Shown here: positions 53,103-64,000 of the stretch, piece after piece
Position numbering within the stretch: the first letter of the stretch is position 1
Layout: each line of letters starts with the position of its first letter
From: Desmodesmus armatus
Taxonomy: Eukaryota > Chlorophyta > Chlorophyceae > Sphaeropleales > Scenedesmaceae
Direction of reading: 5' to 3'
Length of the DNA: 64,000 nt
NCBI GenBank assembly: GCA_007449985.2
Contig: VIIQ02000703.1
Coordinates: 543,107-607,106, forward strand
Position numbers and translations under genes: made by a program
The notes under the pieces: generated by a model
What the model saw: only the letters and a program-made list of their open reading frames with translations
Database searches by the model: none
What the model was told of the DNA's origin: nothing

Positions 53103-54564
53103 TGCCGCGGGCTGTCCCTATGTAAGGTGGAACCAATGTTCCTGTAGGGTCAGACAAGCGCGTTGTTGGTGTTGACTGATAAGGACCAGCTGACTGCAGC
53201 TGCCAGCTGTAACAGAGGCCGCAAACTATTCCTCACTGCTTTTGAAGACCTGGCAGCGACCAGTGGCATGAACTCAACTGCCCCAATGGCCAAGTAGCAC
53301 TCCAGGAGAATGCAAAAGACCCTGGTAAGTCAGGTGCTGCTCCAGATGTGTCAATATGGTCCTCACATTACCAAACCAGCATAAGCTGTCCTGTTTGCTG
53401 CTAGACTGATCAAACGACCACAAAGACGTCAAAAAATGCAAGCAAAATAAAACACGCAAGTCCTGTACTGTGCCGAGAGCACAAACAGAGCATCAGGCAA
53501 GCCACTGTGATCACCTGTGAGGGTCGCCTCCAGCTGATCAACCCTAACGTGTTGAGTTTTGGAGGGCCCGCCTAAACTATGAGCGCTACTTCAGGCCCGC
53601 GCCGTCCGTTCAAGGCTGCCAAGTCGGCAAGACATATGTGCCCATCCAGCATCGATGTGTGCAGTCAAACAGACATTGCCCGGTCCCTAAGTGTGAGCGA
53701 CTGAACGCTCGACTGGCCGCATTCTTTCCTTTCCTCTCACTCTTCTCAAAAGATGCTCTGGTTGGGAGGAATATTAGTAATCCGTCAGGCGTAACCCTCA
53801 GCGTAGGCCTCAGAACCCGGTGATTAAGACTGATATGTGAGCTTGGTCCTTCAATGGAGGTTAGTAAAGCCTTCCTGGGGAACCAGGCATTCACACCCTG
53901 GCCACCGCTTTGGCAGCAAGTAGTCAGACCGTCACTGGGACCACAGGCTTGAAATGCAGGGACAGATGGGAGGGGTCTGCACACAGCTGGCTAGGGCTAA
54001 CAAGTACCTACCAGATCGTACAGGCAGCTGCAGTGCTTGCCTTGAGTGTCTGCACAGCAGCTGCATGTGAAAAATGGGGTCTGTCAGCTGAAAATGGCCA
54101 GGAGGGGACCAGCAGCTGCTGCCTCAACAACATGCTGTAACAGCAGCTGCATGGCTTGTGCACCCACCCACGCACCAGCAGGGAGCTGACTCTCAAGCAG
54201 CTTTTTGAACGCCAACAGCAGCAGCGAGGCCAGGCTGTCTCAGTCTCCAACAAACTGTCTCACAACAAGGCAACAGCAGCAGCTCACAACCCAGCGCTGA
54301 TCAGGCAACACACAGGCACATATGCCCCTGGGATTCAAATCTTGATTGCTCTATCCAGCTGTAAGCTGCTCTGGAGCTTTGAACGCAAACCTCACTTTCT
54401 CATTCAACGGCCATAATGTCGTCCGAACTGCCATGGGGCAAAAGGGCCCAGTTGCGCCCTAGCAGGGCCCCATAGGGATTCTTTGTTACGGAAAAGCATT
54501 TCTCTGCACTTGTCGACCCAAGACAGCAGCGGTGACCTTCCACCTGGCTTACTTCTGCCGAACT
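53103..54564. other. Spacer between the minus-strand gene and the transposon array
   Basis: The 53103-53300 part should contain the promoter of the minus-strand Gln-rich gene. No repeat or RNA gene was recognised in the remainder. The sequence changes abruptly at 54565, where the tandem unit begins. Confidence 0.4.
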
Positions 54565-54688
54565 GAAGGTCTCACATGTGTGACCACCCCCCTGATTAAA
54601 CCCCATTTGAACCCTAGCCCCAGCCCATTGGGCACTGCTGCTTCAGTGCTTTCAAATGCACCCTGTTGCTGTTTTCAACCACGCGCAG

Positions 54689-56891
54689 GGCACCAGCTAA
54701 GGAGGAGCCTGTGCACAGCGGTCACAACCGCCACACCCCGGCCACCAGGAAGTCATGCGTCGTGGCTTGCGCCCAGGCTCTCGTCGACGGCAAGGTCGAT
54801 TATGGCCTTGCCGGCAGACTATATAAGAAGGTGCGCAAGCAGCTTGGTGGTGACAAGCTGGCAGAGGATCCCAAGCCTGTATTGAAGGGCAGATGGGACC
54901 ACTTTGTGGAGTACGGTGACGTCGAGGACAACCTCCGCACAGGCCGCCCTGTCCTTATCAGCAGAGAAGATGCCCTAACAGCTAGTACAGCCATCAAGGC
55001 AGGAAGGCTGCACACAAAGACCCGCAAAGGACACACCATCACCCTGATATCCTACTTCACCACAGTGCGGCAGGCGACGGTGGAGTCTGATGCTGTCAAG
55101 GGTGTCATGCAGAAATACAACTGCACCCCCCACCAGCTGTACAACGCCATGATGAGGGAGGATCCCAACCTCGGGCGGCGCAGTTTTGCGTTGAAGTACC
55201 GGCTGACAGAAAAGGAGAAAGCTGCCCGGAAAAGCTTCTGCAAGCAGCTGCTGGCAGAGTGGAACGTCGCACAGGCGTTGCTGAATGCAATCCTAGCTAG
55301 GATTGTGCAGTGCGACGAGGGCCGCTGGACATACAACACCTACACCCATGCGCATGTCAGGGCATATGTGGACCTGCAGCACCTCCCCCTGCACGACTAC
55401 GTGTCGCTGCCAACGATCAAGGGGGACAAGCAGCAGACAGTTCACTTCTTCATATGCGTGTCAGCACACCCCAGCTTCAGCGACAAGAACGGCTTGGTGT
55501 ACTATGAACTCACCACAGGCACCACCCACATCCTCCGCTGGTTCAACAAGCTTGGGCAAGAAGGCAAAGAGCCCTTTGTCTACCAGGTGAGCACAGTTAC
55601 AAATTGACCAGCTGGTTTCCAAAGGCATCAGCAGCAGTTGCTGCTGCTGCTCCCACCCCAGCACACAGCTTCTCAATGTGAGGCTTGCCAGAAAGCTCGT
55701 AGCTGGCAGTAAAAACAACACCCTTATGCTGCGATGCATATTCAACAGCTGCCATAACAATATCTGGTGCCGCGAGGTCTGCATGATGCGCGCGTACGAG
55801 CGCCAGGCGGCGCTCGCAGCATACCTTGCTGCACTTGAAATCACGCTCAAATGCCTTATTCTTGCAACCATCCCTGAAGTGATAAGAATCGTCAACTTGT
55901 AGATACACGTCGCGCTTCCAGTTGTAGAAATCAATGCGACCATGGCAATCGGTCAAGTGCACCTGCCAACACCACTCCTGTGACTGCTGCTGCTGCGCAA
56001 CTAGCTGCATGAACTTCCACTCTGCAGGGGGGATAACAGGACGGCCAGCAGCCTCCCATGCCCCACTTTCATAAGTGCAGAAGCAGCACATGAGTGCGAC
56101 AGGCTTGCGCACAGCGTCAGGGGTGCACAACTTGAAGTGTTGCACCTTGTCCCGACACTCCGTAGTGCACCACATGAACTGCTGCTTCTTCTCTGACTTG
56201 AGCAACTTATACTCATTGCCAGCACGGTCCACCCACGTCACTGCTCTGTTGTGTGGCTTCTTCACCCTGATCCCCCCCAGTTGATGTGCTGCCAAGGCCT
56301 TCCTCATCAATGCCTCCCTCCCTTTGCTGTTGCCGTGCTGTTGCTCCGCCATGCCGTGACCTGCAGAGGAAGGATGGAGCAGACGCAGCAAGCACTGTTA
56401 CTGATGAGGTAGCTGACAACCTGTACAAGATGGTGGAGAAGTTTAGGAATGTGACTGGTGAGGACCCCATCATCATGATGGACAACGTCCGCATACAGGC
56501 CAACATCCCGGATAAGATCATCGAGTCCCGCTACGGCACCATCACCCTGCCTGAAGGCTGCCGCCTTCGCTTCCCCCCCCACAGCTCAGACATTGATCAG
56601 CTGGTGGAGCACTCCATTGGTGCAGTCAAGGGAGCAGCAACAGACAAGGTGTTTGATGAATGCTGCCATGGGGTTGTGTTCTCGGGTGAGTCCCTGCGGC
56701 GCATCTTCAAGGGTGTGTTTAAGAGGTTTGAGAAGGGGGAGCTGTACCACCGGGGGGTGGAGCGCAACATGCGCAAGCTGCCCACTGTGTTGAGGATTAT
56801 CGCATCCGGAGAGGATGAGTGGTTCACAGATCCAGATGGCAAGCAGCACCATGGCAGCAACGGCGACTGGCCGAATGCAGGCGACCGCTAA
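54689..56891 (+). pseudogene. Tc1/mariner-type transposase, copy 1, lacking exon 1
   Basis: Exons 54689-55586 and 56367-56891 match those of copy 2. Exon 1 with the start ATG is absent because the sequence upstream of 54565 is unrelated. Without an upstream in-frame start this copy should not be made as a full protein. Its second intron (55587-56366) contains the antisense gene. Confidence 0.8.
55597..56352 (-). CDS. Putative PD-(D/E)XK nuclease nested antisense in transposase intron, copy 1
   Basis: The frame codes for 251 residues from the ATG at 56352 to TAA at 55597-55599. It lies wholly within transposase intron 55587-56366 and fills about 97% of it. The N-terminal half has paired Cys (MWCTTEC, LMCCFC), perhaps zinc-binding. 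The C-terminal half has RIDFYNWKRDVYLQVDDSYH, then FERDFKCSKVCCERRLALVR and AHHADL. This order, a D-F strand, a following strand ending in [EQ]-x-D, H, a helix, then L-x-L-V-R, resembles Vsr/DUF559-like PD-(D/E)XK nucleases, with Gln where Glu is usual. The frame is open further upstream to 56391, but that part overlaps exon 3. Function is inferred from pattern alone. Confidence 0.55.
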   Translation of the reverse strand: MAEQQHGNSKGREALMRKALAAHQLGGIRVKKPHNRAVTWVDRAGNEYKLLKSEKKQQFMWCTTECRDKVQHFKLCTPDAVRKPVALMCCFCTYESGAWEAAGRPVIPPAEWKFMQLVAQQQQSQEWCWQVHLTDCHGRIDFYNWKRDVYLQVDDSYHFRDGCKNKAFERDFKCSKVCCERRLALVRAHHADLAAPDIVMAAVEYASQHKGVVFTASYELSGKPHIEKLCAGVGAAAATAADAFGNQLVNL

Positions 56892-57960
56892 GGCGTCAGC
56901 GCATGCAGCAGATGCAGCAGCAGCATGGCAGCAGTTTGCTGTCCAAGCCTGCACATGGCTGCGCATGGGGTGTGTGTTCCCAGGGTATGCCACCTATAGG
57001 GTTTAGGGTTCAGCTGCAGCCACTGCTGTGGTGAGCATCAGTGTCTTCATGATCTGTGGCCAGTGCATCCGCTGAGCTAACAAGATGTAGTGCAGCCTGT
57101 GTTTATTCAAAGCACAGCCCTCAATGTAGTTGTTGCAAGTTTGATCAATGTAGTTATCAGGGTTGTGTGTGAGAGAGGGTGTTGGAAGTGCCACTGGCCC
57201 CCACCCAGGTGTACTGTTGGGCAGGCAGCACACATAGCAGCTGTCCAATCATTGATTCTGTCACATAAACTGGTATGTGTGGAGAGAGTTTGCAGCTTAG
57301 ATGCCCCATCTTTACCTCATTGTGCTTGAGACAGGCACTACTGGGAGTTATGTCATGTCAACTGTGCCTGGTATTGCACTGTTAGCAGCTGTGCTTTCAC
57401 AGCTGTGCAACCAGGCATGCTCGAGGCCGAATGCTATAATATTGAGTACGAAACGAGTTCATTTGCTGCGCAAGGAAAGCAACCTGGAAGCATCCAAGCC
57501 AACTTCACCCCTGTTCAAAGGCCAATGGTCCGCGCTTACATCAACATCACCCTCTGTAGCAACGTCAGTTTGTAGTAAATCAAGCATTCAACGAACAGCA
57601 GGCGTCTAGAGAGCAGCCGGTGCCCACAGCAGGAACAGCAAGCAATCTGCAGAGACTGCCAGCTTTCCAGGTGTGGCGGGCTTGTCGCGATAAGGCCAGT
57701 GCCAGTGTGACGTGCTTGACAGGTCCTCTTAAAGCATTCATAAGTCATTCATTTTGCTTTCGAGAGCTGCACGCAAGCCCTTTGGAAGTTTCGCGCCAGA
57801 CATCACTAGCATCTGCTCAAGTCTGAAGTCAGCTGAGGCGTCTATGGCCCCGCTGCACCAGATAGACTCTCACAATGCACAAAAACACACATTTTGGTAC
57901 ACGCACCGCTGCGGATTATGCAGGTCCGCGACACCAGCCTGCCTGGAACGCTGCAGCAAG
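56892..57960. other. Unit spacer between transposase stop and next transposase start
   Basis: This part of each unit must hold the transposase 3' end and the promoter of the next copy. It contains TATAGGGTTTAGGGTTCAG at ~56995, which has two plant-type telomere-like TTTAGGG registers. No ORF is convincing. The same stretch recurs at 60415-61483. Confidence 0.5.
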
Positions 57961-60414
57961 ATGGGCAAAAACAAGCGCAGCAGAGCGAGTGACAAGTGAG
58001 TGCGATCAGATCTGCCCAGGTAGCACTGCAGCCTGGCACAGCTTGCGGGCGAGCAGCTGCACCAACGGCGAAAGTCAACCAACCTTCGAAGGTCTCACAT
58101 GTGTGACCACCCCCCTGATTAAACCCCATTTGAACCCTAGCCCCAGCCCATTGGGCACTGCTGCTTCAGTGCTTTCAAATGCACCCTGTTGCTGTTTTCA
58201 ACCACGCGCAGGGCACCAGCTAAGGAGGAGCCTGTGCACAGCGGTCACAACCGCCACACCCCGGCCACCAGGAAGTCATGCGTCGTGGCTTGCGCCCAGG
58301 CTCTCGTCGACGGCAAGGTCGATTATGGCCTTGCCGGCAGACTATATAAGAAGGTGCGCAAGCAGCTTGGTGGTGACAAGCTGGCAGAGGATCCCAAGCC
58401 TGTATTGAAGGGCAGATGGGACCACTTTGTGGAGTACGGTGACGTCGAGGACAACCTCCGCACAGGCCGCCCTGTCCTTATCAGCAGAGAAGATGCCCTA
58501 ACAGCTAGTACAGCCATCAAGGCAGGAAGGCTGCACACAAAGACCCGCAAAGGACACACCATCACCCTGATATCCTACTTCACCACAGTGCGGCAGGCGA
58601 CGGTGGAGTCTGATGCTGTCAAGGGTGTCATGCAGAAATACAACTGCACCCCCCACCAGCTGTACAACGCCATGATGAGGGAGGATCCCAACCTCGGGCG
58701 GCGCAGTTTTGCGTTGAAGTACCGGCTGACAGAAAAGGAGAAAGCTGCCCGGAAAAGCTTCTGCAAGCAGCTGCTGGCAGAGTGGAACGTCGCACAGGCG
58801 TTGCTGAATGCAATCCTAGCTAGGATTGTGCAGTGCGACGAGGGCCGCTGGACATACAACACCTACACCCATGCGCATGTCAGGGCATATGTGGACCTGC
58901 AGCACCTCCCCCTGCACGACTACGTGTCGCTGCCAACGATCAAGGGGGACAAGCAGCAGACAGTTCACTTCTTCATATGCGTGTCAGCACACCCCAGCTT
59001 CAGCGACAAGAACGGCTTGGTGTACTATGAACTCACCACAGGCACCACCCACATCCTCCGCTGGTTCAACAAGCTTGGGCAAGAAGGCAAAGAGCCCTTT
59101 GTCTACCAGGTGAGCACAGTTACAAATTGACCAGCTGGTTTCCAAAGGCATCAGCAGCAGTTGCTGCTGCTGCTCCCACCCCAGCACACAGCTTCTCAAT
59201 GTGAGGCTTGCCAGAAAGCTCGTAGCTGGCAGTAAAAACAACACCCTTATGCTGCGATGCATATTCAACAGCTGCCATAACAATATCTGGTGCCGCGAGG
59301 TCTGCATGATGCGCGCGTACGAGCGCCAGGCGGCGCTCGCAGCATACCTTGCTGCACTTGAAATCACGCTCAAATGCCTTATTCTTGCAACCATCCCTGA
59401 AGTGATAAGAATCGTCAACTTGTAGATACACGTCGCGCTTCCAGTTGTAGAAATCAATGCGACCATGGCAATCGGTCAAGTGCACCTGCCAACACCACTC
59501 CTGTGACTGCTGCTGCTGCGCAACTAGCTGCATGAACTTCCACTCTGCAGGGGGGATAACAGGACGGCCAGCAGCCTCCCATGCCCCACTTTCATAAGTG
59601 CAGAAGCAGCACATGAGTGCGACAGGCTTGCGCACAGCGTCAGGGGTGCACAACTTGAAGTGTTGCACCTTGTCCCGACACTCCGTAGTGCACCACATGA
59701 ACTGCTGCTTCTTCTCTGACTTGAGCAACTTATACTCATTGCCAGCACGGTCCACCCACGTCACTGCTCTGTTGTGTGGCTTCTTCACCCTGATCCCCCC
59801 CAGTTGATGTGCTGCCAAGGCCTTCCTCATCAATGCCTCCCTCCCTTTGCTGTTGCCGTGCTGTTGCTCCGCCATGCCGTGACCTGCAGAGGAAGGATGG
59901 AGCAGACGCAGCAAGCACTGTTACTGATGAGGTAGCTGACAACCTGTACAAGATGGTGGAGAAGTTTAGGAATGTGACTGGTGAGGACCCCATCATCATG
60001 ATGGACAACGTCCGCATACAGGCCAACATCCCGGATAAGATCATCGAGTCCCGCTACGGCACCATCACCCTGCCTGAAGGCTGCCGCCTTCGCTTCCCCC
60101 CCCACAGCTCAGACATTGATCAGCTGGTGGAGCACTCCATTGGTGCAGTCAAGGGAGCAGCAACAGACAAGGTGTTTGATGAATGCTGCCATGGGGTTGT
60201 GTTCTCGGGTGAGTCCCTGCGGCGCATCTTCAAGGGTGTGTTTAAGAGGTTTGAGAAGGGGGAGCTGTACCACCGGGGGGTGGAGCGCAACATGCGCAAG
60301 CTGCCCACTGTGTTGAGGATTATCGCATCCGGAGAGGATGAGTGGTTCACAGATCCAGATGGCAAGCAGCACCATGGCAGCAACGGCGACTGGCCGAATG
60401 CAGGCGACCGCTAA
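57961..60414 (+). CDS. Tc1/mariner-type transposase, copy 2, intact
   Basis: Three exons, 57961-57995, 58212-59109 and 59890-60414, join in phase to 485 residues. The start is MGKNKRSRASDK, a basic N-terminus. An HTH-type region follows (CVVACAQALVDGKVDYGLAG; later GRRSFALKYRLTEKEKAARK, the usual Tc1/mariner linker with L-T-x-K-x-K-x2-R). Catalytic carboxylates are likely in IVQCDEGRW, IIMMDNVRIQ and PPHSSDIDQLVEHS, which correspond to the D-x-G, D-N and S-P-D-x4-E blocks of the IS630/Tc1/mariner superfamily. The last spacing is somewhat longer than the classical DD34. Intron 1 crosses the unit junction at 58088, so exon 1 lies in the preceding unit. Cut-and-paste transposition in the nucleus is the family role. 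Confidence 0.8.
59120..59875 (-). CDS. Putative PD-(D/E)XK nuclease nested antisense in transposase intron, copy 2
   Basis: Identical in protein to the copy at 55597-56352. It lies inside intron 59110-59889 of the intact transposase. The two genes share no coding bases if translation starts at the ATG at 59875. Expression from one strand should interfere with the other, because the transposase transcript carries its full antisense sequence until spliced. Confidence 0.55.
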   Translation of the reverse strand: MAEQQHGNSKGREALMRKALAAHQLGGIRVKKPHNRAVTWVDRAGNEYKLLKSEKKQQFMWCTTECRDKVQHFKLCTPDAVRKPVALMCCFCTYESGAWEAAGRPVIPPAEWKFMQLVAQQQQSQEWCWQVHLTDCHGRIDFYNWKRDVYLQVDDSYHFRDGCKNKAFERDFKCSKVCCERRLALVRAHHADLAAPDIVMAAVEYASQHKGVVFTASYELSGKPHIEKLCAGVGAAAATAADAFGNQLVNL

Positions 60415-61483
60415 GGCGTCAGCGCATGCAGCAGATGCAGCAGCAGCATGGCAGCAGTTTGCTGTCCAAGCCTGCACATGGCTGCGCATGGGGTGTGTGT
60501 TCCCAGGGTATGCCACCTATAGGGTTTAGGGTTCAGCTGCAGCCACTGCTGTGGTGAGCATCAGTGTCTTCATGATCTGTGGCCAGTGCATCCGCTGAGC
60601 TAACAAGATGTAGTGCAGCCTGTGTTTATTCAAAGCACAGCCCTCAATGTAGTTGTTGCAAGTTTGATCAATGTAGTTATCAGGGTTGTGTGTGAGAGAG
60701 GGTGTTGGAAGTGCCACTGGCCCCCACCCAGGTGTACTGTTGGGCAGGCAGCACACATAGCAGCTGTCCAATCATTGATTCTGTCACATAAACTGGTATG
60801 TGTGGAGAGAGTTTGCAGCTTAGATGCCCCATCTTTACCTCATTGTGCTTGAGACAGGCACTACTGGGAGTTATGTCATGTCAACTGTGCCTGGTATTGC
60901 ACTGTTAGCAGCTGTGCTTTCACAGCTGTGCAACCAGGCATGCTCGAGGCCGAATGCTATAATATTGAGTACGAAACGAGTTCATTTGCTGCGCAAGGAA
61001 AGCAACCTGGAAGCATCCAAGCCAACTTCACCCCTGTTCAAAGGCCAATGGTCCGCGCTTACATCAACATCACCCTCTGTAGCAACGTCAGTTTGTAGTA
61101 AATCAAGCATTCAACGAACAGCAGGCGTCTAGAGAGCAGCCGGTGCCCACAGCAGGAACAGCAAGCAATCTGCAGAGACTGCCAGCTTTCCAGGTGTGGC
61201 GGGCTTGTCGCGATAAGGCCAGTGCCAGTGTGACGTGCTTGACAGGTCCTCTTAAAGCATTCATAAGTCATTCATTTTGCTTTCGAGAGCTGCACGCAAG
61301 CCCTTTGGAAGTTTCGCGCCAGACATCACTAGCATCTGCTCAAGTCTGAAGTCAGCTGAGGCGTCTATGGCCCCGCTGCACCAGATAGACTCTCACAATG
61401 CACAAAAACACACATTTTGGTACACGCACCGCTGCGGATTATGCAGGTCCGCGACACCAGCCTGCCTGGAACGCTGCAGCAAG
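60415..61483. other. Unit spacer, second copy
   Basis: Same as 56892-57960, offset 3,523 bp, no difference noticed. It includes the telomere-like AGGGTTTAGGGTT at ~60520. Confidence 0.5.
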
Positions 61484-63931
61484 ATGGGCAAAAACAAGCG
61501 CAGCAGAGCGAGTGACAAGTGAGTGCGATCAGATCTGCCCAGGTAGCACTGCAGCCTGGCACAGCTTGCGGGCGAGCAGCTGCACCAACGGCGAAAGTCA
61601 ACCAACCTTCGAAGGTCTCACATGTGTGACCACCCCCCTGATTAAACCCCATTTGAACCCTAGCCCCAGCCCATTGGGCACTGCTGCTTCAGTGCTTTCA
61701 AATGCACCCTGTTGCTGTTTTCAACCACGCGCAGGGCACCAGCTAAGGAGGAGCCTGTGCACAGCGGTCACAACCGCCACACCCCGGCCACCAGGAAGTC
61801 ATGCGTCGTGGCTTGCGCCCAGGCTCTCGTCGACGGCAAGGTCGATTATGGCCTTGCCGGCAGACTATATAAGAAGGTGCGCAAGCAGCTTGGTGGTGAC
61901 AAGCTGGCAGAGGATCCCAAGCCTGTATTGAAGGGCAGATGGGACCACTTTGTGGAGTACGGTGACGTCGAGGACAACCTCCGCACAGGCCGCCCTGTCC
62001 TTATCAGCAGAGAAGATGCCCTAACAGCTAGTACAGCCATCAAGGCAGGAAGGCTGCACACAAAGACCCGCAAAGGACACACCATCACCCTGATATCCTA
62101 CTTCACCACAGTGCGGCAGGCGACGGTGGAGTCTGATGCTGTCAAGGGTGTCATGCAGAAATACAACTGCACCCCCCACCAGCTGTACAACGCCATGATG
62201 AGGGAGGATCCCAACCTCGGGCGGCGCAGTTTTGCGTTGAAGTACCGCTGACAGAAAAGGAGAAAGCTGCCCGGAAAAGCTTCTGCAAGCAGCTGCTGGC
62301 AGAGTGGAACGTCGCACAGGCGTTGCTGAATGCAATCCTAGCTAGGATTGTGCAGTGCGACGAGGGCCGCTGGACATACAACACCTACACCCATGCGCAT
62401 GTCAGGGCATATGTGGACCTGCAGCACCTCCCCCTGCACGACTACGTGTCGCTGCCAACGATCAAGGGGGACAAGCAGCAGACAGTTCACTTCTTCATAT
62501 GCGTGTCAGCACACCCCAGCTTCAGCGACAAGAACGGCTTGGTGTACTATGAACTCACCACAGGCACCACCCACATCCTCCGCTGGTTCAACAAGCTTGG
62601 GCAAGAAGGCAAAGAGCCCTTTGTCTACCAGGTGAGCACAGTTACAAATTGACCAGCTGGTTTCCAAAGGCATCAGCAGCAGTTGCTGCTGCTGCTCCCA
62701 CCCCAGCACACAGCTTCTCAATGTGAGGCTTGCCAGAAAGCTCGTAGCTGGCAGTAAAAACAACACCCTTATGCTGCGATGCATATTCAACAGCTGCCAT
62801 AACAATATCTGGTGCCGCGAGGTCTGCATGATGCGCGCGTACGAGCGCCAGGCGGCGCTCGCAGCATACCTTGCTGCACTTGAAATCACGCTCAAATGCC
62901 TTATTCTTGCAACCATCCCTGAAGTGATAAGAATCGTCAACTTGTAGATACACGTCGCGCTTCCAGTTGTAGAAATCAATGCGACCATGGCAATCGGTCA
63001 AGTGCACCTGCCAACACCACTCCTGTGACTGCTGCTGCTGCGCAACTAGCTGCATGAACTTCCACTCTGCAGGGGGGATAACAGGACGGCCAGCAGCCTC
63101 CCATGCCCCACTTTCATAAGTGCAGAAGCAGCACATGAGTGCGACAGGCTTGCGCACAGCGTCAGGGGTGCACAACTTGAAGTGTTGCACCTTGTCCCGA
63201 CACTCCGTAGTGCACCACATGAACTGCTGCTTCTTCTCTGACTTGAGCAACTTATACTCATTGCCAGCACGGTCCACCCACGTCACTGCTCTGTTGTGTG
63301 GCTTCTTCACCCTGATCCCCCCCAGTTGATGTGCTGCCAAGGCCTTCCTCATCAATGCCTCCCTCCCTTTGCTGTTGCCGTGCTGTTGCTCCGCCATGCC
63401 GTGACCTGCAGAGGAAGGATGGAGCAGACGCAGCAAGCACTGTTACTGATGAGGTAGCTGACAACCTGTACAAGATGGTGGAGAAGTTTAGGAATGTGAC
63501 TGGTGAGGACCCATCATCATGATGGACAACGTCCGCATACAGGCCAACATCCCGATAAGATCATCGAGTCCCGCTACGGCACCATCACCCTGCCTGAAGG
63601 CTGCCGCCTTCGCTTCCCCCCCACAGCTCAGACATTGATCAGCTGGTGGAGCACTCCATTGGTGCAGTCAAGGGAGCAGCAACAGACAAGGTGTTTGATG
63701 AATGCTGCCATGGGGTTGTGTTCTCGGGTGAGTCCCTGCGGCGCATCTTCAAGGGTGTGTTTAAGAGGTTTGAGAAGGGGGAGCTGTACCACCGGGGGGT
63801 GGAGCGCAACATGCGCAAGCTGCCCACTGTGTTGAGGATTATCGCATCCGGAGAGGATGAGTGGTTCACGATCCAGATGGCAAGCAGCACCATGGCAGCA
63901 ACGGCGACTGGCGAATGCAGGCGACCGCTAA
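61484..63931 (+). pseudogene. Tc1/mariner-type transposase, copy 3, multiple 1-nt deletions
   Basis: Exons correspond to 61484-61518, 61735-62631 and 63412-63931. Relative to copies 1 and 2 single bases are missing at ~62247 (GG to G), ~63511 (C-run), ~63554 (GG to G), ~63618 (C-run), ~63869 and ~63911, breaking the frame in exons 2 and 3. Most are in short homopolymers and cluster at the window end. Sequence error is as likely as decay. Confidence 0.7.
62642..63397 (-). CDS. Putative PD-(D/E)XK nuclease nested antisense in transposase intron, copy 3
   Basis: The protein matches the other two copies in full, although the surrounding transposase exons are frame-broken here. It lies in the intron 62632-63411. 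Confidence 0.55.
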   Translation of the reverse strand: MAEQQHGNSKGREALMRKALAAHQLGGIRVKKPHNRAVTWVDRAGNEYKLLKSEKKQQFMWCTTECRDKVQHFKLCTPDAVRKPVALMCCFCTYESGAWEAAGRPVIPPAEWKFMQLVAQQQQSQEWCWQVHLTDCHGRIDFYNWKRDVYLQVDDSYHFRDGCKNKAFERDFKCSKVCCERRLALVRAHHADLAAPDIVMAAVEYASQHKGVVFTASYELSGKPHIEKLCAGVGAAAATAADAFGNQLVNL

Positions 63932-64000
63932 GGCGTCAGCGAATGCAGGCAGATGCAGCAGCAGCTGGCAGCAGTTTGCTGTCCAAGCCTGCACATGGCT

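Follow-up and report, generated by a model that had tools for sequence, protein, structure and literature searches.

The window, a stretch of 64,000 nucleotides (nt) at the end of a 607-kb contig of the green alga Desmodesmus armatus (VIIQ02000703.1, positions 543,107 to 607,106), contains tandem copies of a DNA transposon whose transposase gene is interrupted by an intron, and this intron is almost entirely occupied by an open reading frame (ORF) of the opposite strand that represents a true gene carried by the transposon. This anatomy, together with the assignment of the predicted product to the fold of the Vsr nuclease, is held with high confidence. The explanation that best accounts for the data as a whole, with a probability of about 0.5, is that a nuclease gene of the Vsr/EDxHD type was paired once with the transposase and has been kept as an accessory of the element.

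An antisense gene within a transposase intron

The intron (55587..56366, plus strand) measures 780 nt, lies in phase 0, is bordered by GTGAGC...CTGCAG and would be of the spliceosomal type by its splice signals. The antisense ORF (55597..56352, minus strand; 251 codons plus stop) takes 756 of these 780 nt (97%), in agreement with the ORF length and intron coverage given by the initial annotation, and would encode a Vsr-like nuclease with an N-terminal zinc-type motif. On the plus strand, the upstream transposase frame (54618..55586, with an exon start probably near 54689) holds the candidate for the first catalytic D, and the downstream exon (56367..56891, to the stop codon) those for the second D and the E, all of them assigned by motif. 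No complete DDE enzyme would therefore be made without splicing, which is predicted to join ...EGKEPFVYQ to RKDGADAAST... in copy 1. For the window copy, Rfam gave no match to group I or group II introns, and a sub-threshold Rfam miRNA match was disregarded.

A stretch open over the same length occurred in 9 of 5000 sequences simulated from the dinucleotide model of the intron, and the length by itself is only moderately unlikely by chance and suggestive. A chance frame in a stop-poor, GC-rich intron could be imagined from such numbers, but its probability is negligible, because the ORF is conserved across element families, with homologues in these families and in the database that share conserved residues and fold.

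These families were found by searching the genome (115.8 Mb in 831 contigs) with the window ORF, which returned at least 67 copies that are intact over their full length, at 99-100% identity, at least one at 96%, together with a second family at 28-29%. More families came to light when a distant relative from the database served as the query, with many of the listed matches spaced regularly at 2.5-4.3 kb. One or more loci were read from each of four families: F1 (the window), F2 (L039), F3 (L054) and F4 (L055, with L056 and L057 as close relatives). In all four, the antisense ORF stands between two transposase parts, within an intron of 780, 799, 848 and 799 nt (F1 to F4), and the introns of F2, F3 and F4 share the position, the phase (0) and the acceptor (CTGCAG) of the window intron; across the four families the ORF stop lies 10-24 nt inside the donor. 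The frame of the ORF gave the best match of all frames in the six family pairs (E 3e-15 to 2e-42), and the weaker matches obtained in other frames are most plausibly a shadow of the same conservation; nucleotide comparison between the family introns gave at most short matches, of 14-23 nt, and in some cases nothing.

In a protein database of public genomes and metagenomes, 11 homologues of the ORF were found at 44-68% identity, and eight further ones of the F2 type were reached through the alignment, all 19 without a precomputed Pfam domain. The downstream exon of F4 has 42 homologues in the database; the 20 that were aligned all have Q at the acceptor, and 19 of them have LQ, as expected from the translation of a CTGCAG acceptor, while the other protein starts there. 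This comparison is at the protein level, and the limit of the search on candidate length put long intron-free proteins out of its reach. Viral contigs, queried with the nucleases and one transposase exon, gave no confirmed relative, and a viral origin argued from relatives was rejected; the scan of prokaryotic contigs likewise confirmed no relative, and the sequence search of the PDB gave none. As a separate observation, the longest contig of 11 of the 19 database homologues measures 3.5-4.4 kb, close to the length of one array unit, which hints that in other organisms tandem arrays have been collapsed or units exist as circles.

Within the window, the ORFs of the second and third copies (59120..59875 and 62642..63397, both on the minus strand) are identical to that of the first. 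The initial annotation had stressed that the third one stays intact next to a broken transposase, which is correct, but this copy departs from the first by eight single-base indels and one substitution over 2397 aligned columns, mostly near the contig end. These differences look like assembly error, and the intact ORF there is therefore weak evidence and was rejected as a sign of selection.

Predicted fold and active site

The putative nuclease core (residues 105-250; 55603..56040, minus strand) shows E111, D141-F142, Q152-x-D154, H158 and D171. Most ten-residue blocks of this core exceed 80 in predicted local distance difference test score (pLDDT), one standing at 73, and Vsr is the top PDB structure match for both predicted models, with I-Bth0305I in fourth and second place. 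Foldseek comparison with BFVD gave 25 matches at E 0.001 or better, the named ones including restriction-type, DUF559, treble-clef and homing-type proteins of giant viruses and phages. D141 and H158 are present in 22 of 22 aligned sequences, and the E, D, H and D residues of the active site are nearly invariant across the alignment. Judged by motif order and by the FASTKD4 paper (PMC11879112), not by residue-level superposition, D141 and H158 are the likely equivalents of Asp51 and His69 of Vsr. Structure and residue conservation thus bear out the Vsr/DUF559-like PD-(D/E)XK core proposed at first, as does the fold comparison suggested with it. The likeness to Vsr and I-Bth0305I, both EDxHD enzymes, lies in the predicted alpha/beta fold and the conserved acidic and His residues, whereas the product differs from them in the Q at position 152, in a C-H-C-C motif upstream of the core, and in the lack of any sequence-profile match: the ORF matched no nuclease family of Pfam, NCBIfam, PHROG or PADLOC, and the DUF559 and Vsr profiles of Pfam were unmatched in all 21 members, so it has not been filed there.

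The upstream motif, recognized in the alignment as C66-x5-H72-x16-C89-x2-C92 (56077..56157, minus strand), may bind zinc, and among the sequences with a letter at each position it is conserved in 19 of 19 (C66), 21 of 21 (H72), 20 of 21 (C89) and 21 of 21 (C92). A weak zf-C2HC match on F2 (E 0.003; 18 of the 32 bits needed) and the other below-cut-off profile matches of the ORF family were disregarded.

From this fold and these residues, the protein would be expected to cleave DNA. That it is instead a non-cutting factor with a Vsr fold, binding RNA or DNA as RAP-domain proteins may do, is improbable. In FASTKD4, for which the available text of its report gives the conclusion that there is no nuclease activity, the His is replaced by Asn (PMC11879112), whereas D141 and H158 are kept throughout the ORF family, and Pfam RAP was matched by none of 21 members.

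Probable joint inheritance of the nuclease and transposase genes

Between families, identity is 24-35% for the ORF and 25-50% for the exons, the ORF being less alike than both exon parts in six of six family pairs, and the quartet tree is the same for ORF and transposase (support of 99 for the latter). The two genes have therefore travelled together, and for the same reasons no transfer of the ORF between families is seen. The pair would have formed once, before the element families diverged, when a homing-type nuclease gene probably settled in the intron of the transposase, and the nuclease gene would have been inherited with the transposase since then. The apparent long-term retention of the active site argues for its use by the element. 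Most likely, the nuclease would have been kept because it is helpful, cutting element ends, junctions or targets and so leading to better transposition or array growth; this accessory role is put forward tentatively, at slightly less than even odds.

An active homing endonuclease has also to be considered, in which a spliceosomal homing intron would cut intron-free transposase genes and be copied into them by repair. The gene fills its intron, the predicted fold resembles that of I-Bth0305I, and there is a precedent in the shintrons of mirusviruses, spliceosomal introns that hold nuclease genes, for which the accessible text of the report counts 16 VSR-like and 15 PD-(D/E)XK intron genes (PMC12768974). 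One trait of a spliceosomal homing intron, a nuclease gene in a spliceosomal-type intron with no group I or II features, is found here as far as the splice signals and, for the window copy, Rfam tell. On the other hand, no contiguous, intron-free exons were seen in this one genome among the 150 scored candidates (of 487 and 485) for each joined-exon query, the junction falls where the transposase is poorly conserved, and the low ORF identity and concordant trees described above show no movement between families. Active homing is thus rather unlikely, and the homing-type gene of the initial annotation fits better as a probable origin than as a present activity. The gap between F1 exon pairs (several dozen, matched by eye) is 768-772 nt, and the homogeneity of the ORF was not used as evidence for homing, since most loci had been picked by an intron or ORF match.

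The antisense orientation also raised the possibility of a brake, that is, minus-strand transcription limiting the transposase mRNA, with the protein mattering little. Such a brake would agree with the orientation in four of four families, with the weak recent constraint on the protein, and with a TGTAA, which we take to be the green-algal poly(A) signal, that overlaps the ORF stop in F1, F2 and F3 and is the sole one on its strand in the intron plus 400 nt. However, with this same signal the nuclease message would stop at the edge of the intron, so that its overlap with the upstream exon would be limited, and F4 is devoid of the signal; moreover, antisense control needs no active site conserved across families so divergent in sequence. 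Transcription of both strands, if it occurs, is likely to have some antisense effect on the transposase mRNA, but this would not preserve catalytic residues, and as an explanation of the ORF the brake is quite improbable.

Several observations count against a retained accessory nuclease. Nothing directly links the nuclease to transposition, and all four families come from one genome. The support of the quartet tree for the ORF is weak (63). In close copies, the ratio of nonsynonymous to synonymous differences per site (pN/pS), a measure called for when the ORF was first described, is only mildly below 1 for the ORF, with few changes (0.29-0.40 in F2, 0.73-0.95 in F3, 0.37-0.74 in F4), and constraint is stronger on the transposase exons than on the ORF in F2 and F3, as it is on the downstream exon in F4. 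Summed over a single pair from each of F2, F3 and F4, the ORF shows 24.5 nonsynonymous differences over 1831 sites and 16.5 synonymous ones over 551, and the remaining ORF pairs range from 0.37 to 0.84; these are small counts, codons with gaps or stops having been dropped, and they suggest a modest recent constraint. Among the genome matches listed for the ORF, a number are frameshifted, cut or stopped. Whether relatives would keep the ORF intact, as the initial annotation asked, has thus a double answer: it is present in the introns of all four families, whereas many old or damaged single copies have it disrupted, as likewise happens to their transposase exon. Regarding the fold, Foldseek gave nothing against the PDB at E 0.001 or better, and position 152, equivalent to one at which related enzymes often carry E, is Q in the ORF and L in F3. 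Finally, in the F2 ORF (L039:2600-3388, minus strand) the conserved N-terminal stretch is not preceded by an in-frame ATG; this nuclease may have a spliced first exon that uses the palindromic CTGCAG.

Relation to known intron-borne nucleases

The nearest known kind are the mirusvirus shintrons, with which the D. armatus arrangement shares a nuclease gene, Vsr-like or PD-(D/E)XK in some of them, within a spliceosomal-type intron; in the accessible text, their authors (2025) state that such nucleases in spliceosomal introns were first seen in mirusviruses (PMC12768974). As in the mirusvirus MING-1 case, a gene-bearing intron has been held for long at one site, although the MING-1 protein is described there as not being a recognised nuclease (PMC12768974). 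Unlike in the shintrons as presented in that text, a DNA transposon of the chromosomes provides the host gene, its transposase gene, the nuclease gene runs antisense to it, the pair occurs in each of the four families read, and no intron-free copy was seen; the chromosomal transposon host, the orientation and the constant pairing are what the present case adds. The opposite strand is also used by the homing endonuclease genes of group I introns in the nuclear ribosomal DNA of Didymium, according to the portion of text available, but there the intron is a self-splicing group I intron, the enzyme has a His-Cys box and the host gene encodes ribosomal RNA (PMC9548176). The statement of the initial annotation that no such arrangement was known is thus nearly right, these two systems coming close to it. 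In the open-licence literature, as far as its accessible texts go, no report was found of a nuclease gene in a transposase intron, nor any shintron paper beyond PMC12768974.

The D. armatus elements suggest that shintron-like introns also occur outside viruses and are able to take an antisense orientation and to become fixed, a chromosomal transposon lineage having kept the nuclease gene over at least four diverged families. They provide an instance, open to experiment, in which a homing gene would have become an accessory, and they add a second enzyme to those worth considering in eukaryotic DNA transposons.

Element structure and arrays

The arrays noted at first are real. From 54565 onwards, units with a period of 3523 bp follow each other head to tail on the plus strand: core copy 1 (54565..58087), copy 2 (58088..61610) and copy 3 (61611..64000), the last one cut by the contig end and with its transposase frame broken by single-base indels. 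They are preceded by block A (53906..54565, plus strand), of about 660 bp and with short inverted repeats at its edges, which is found as a direct repeat at the far end of single insertions. Single F1 insertions have an A-core-A structure, with direct repeats of 657 bp around the 3523-bp core and unique flanks outside. Both sides were read for those of contigs C52, C151, C1, C60 and C190, and the left side only for C612; with the ends taken, by our own choice, as CGCTTTGGCAG...CTGCCGAACTG, the target duplications are tgt, caa, aag, cac and atc. Repeats of 3 bp thus occur at five of five F1 sites with both sides read and at two of three distinct F2 sites (aca in C14, with the same flanks in C16, and gag in C283; C75 does not match). 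F2 has a perfect terminal repeat of 22 bp, CAGTGGGGCAAAAAGTAACTTG, and CAGT...ACTG ends.

The assignment to the Tc1/mariner type made by the initial annotation is upheld in part. The joined F4 transposase shows sub-threshold matches to HTH_32 and DDE_3 and F2 one to DDE_3, which, with the F2 ends, resembles Tc1/mariner-IS630 elements, whereas the window transposase matched neither profile, the 3-bp duplications are not TA, and the direct terminal repeats of F1 and the second gene in the intron set these elements apart. An A-core-A organization with such repeats and 3-bp duplications (L009, L065, L073, L074 and similar) is unusual for a DDE transposon with a Tc1-like transposase.

F1 arrays have periods of 4180 and 3523, with and without A, respectively. 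Among 31 placed left core borders, 18 follow A, 12 follow another core and one an inverted A, and the core-core joints (for instance at 58087/58088 and 61610/61611 of the window, and in L030, L032, L034-L036 and L070) show CG (6), TG (4) or CTG (2) between core ends, remnants that look like excision footprints of A. By analogy with TnsA and TnsB of Tn7, a DDE transposase and a Vsr-like nuclease, encoded on opposite strands, could act together at the A-core-A ends; joint cutting and separate excision of A would then build tandem arrays, and a captured homing intron would have become a transposition subunit. Such a two-part system is unlikely and largely speculative: TnsA is bacterial and differently arranged, no sequence similarity to it has been shown, and the partnership is a guess.

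Arrays of these families often end contigs with neighbouring numbers (C647-C649, C671-C673, C739-C741 and C605-C607), suggesting long unassembled transposon arrays at many places of the genome, perhaps centromeric or heterochromatic. A further array with a period of 2502 bp (L058, C193:29000-33000), for which neither the ORF list nor the joined-exon search contained a downstream exon, keeps the upstream transposase part and the core of the ORF.
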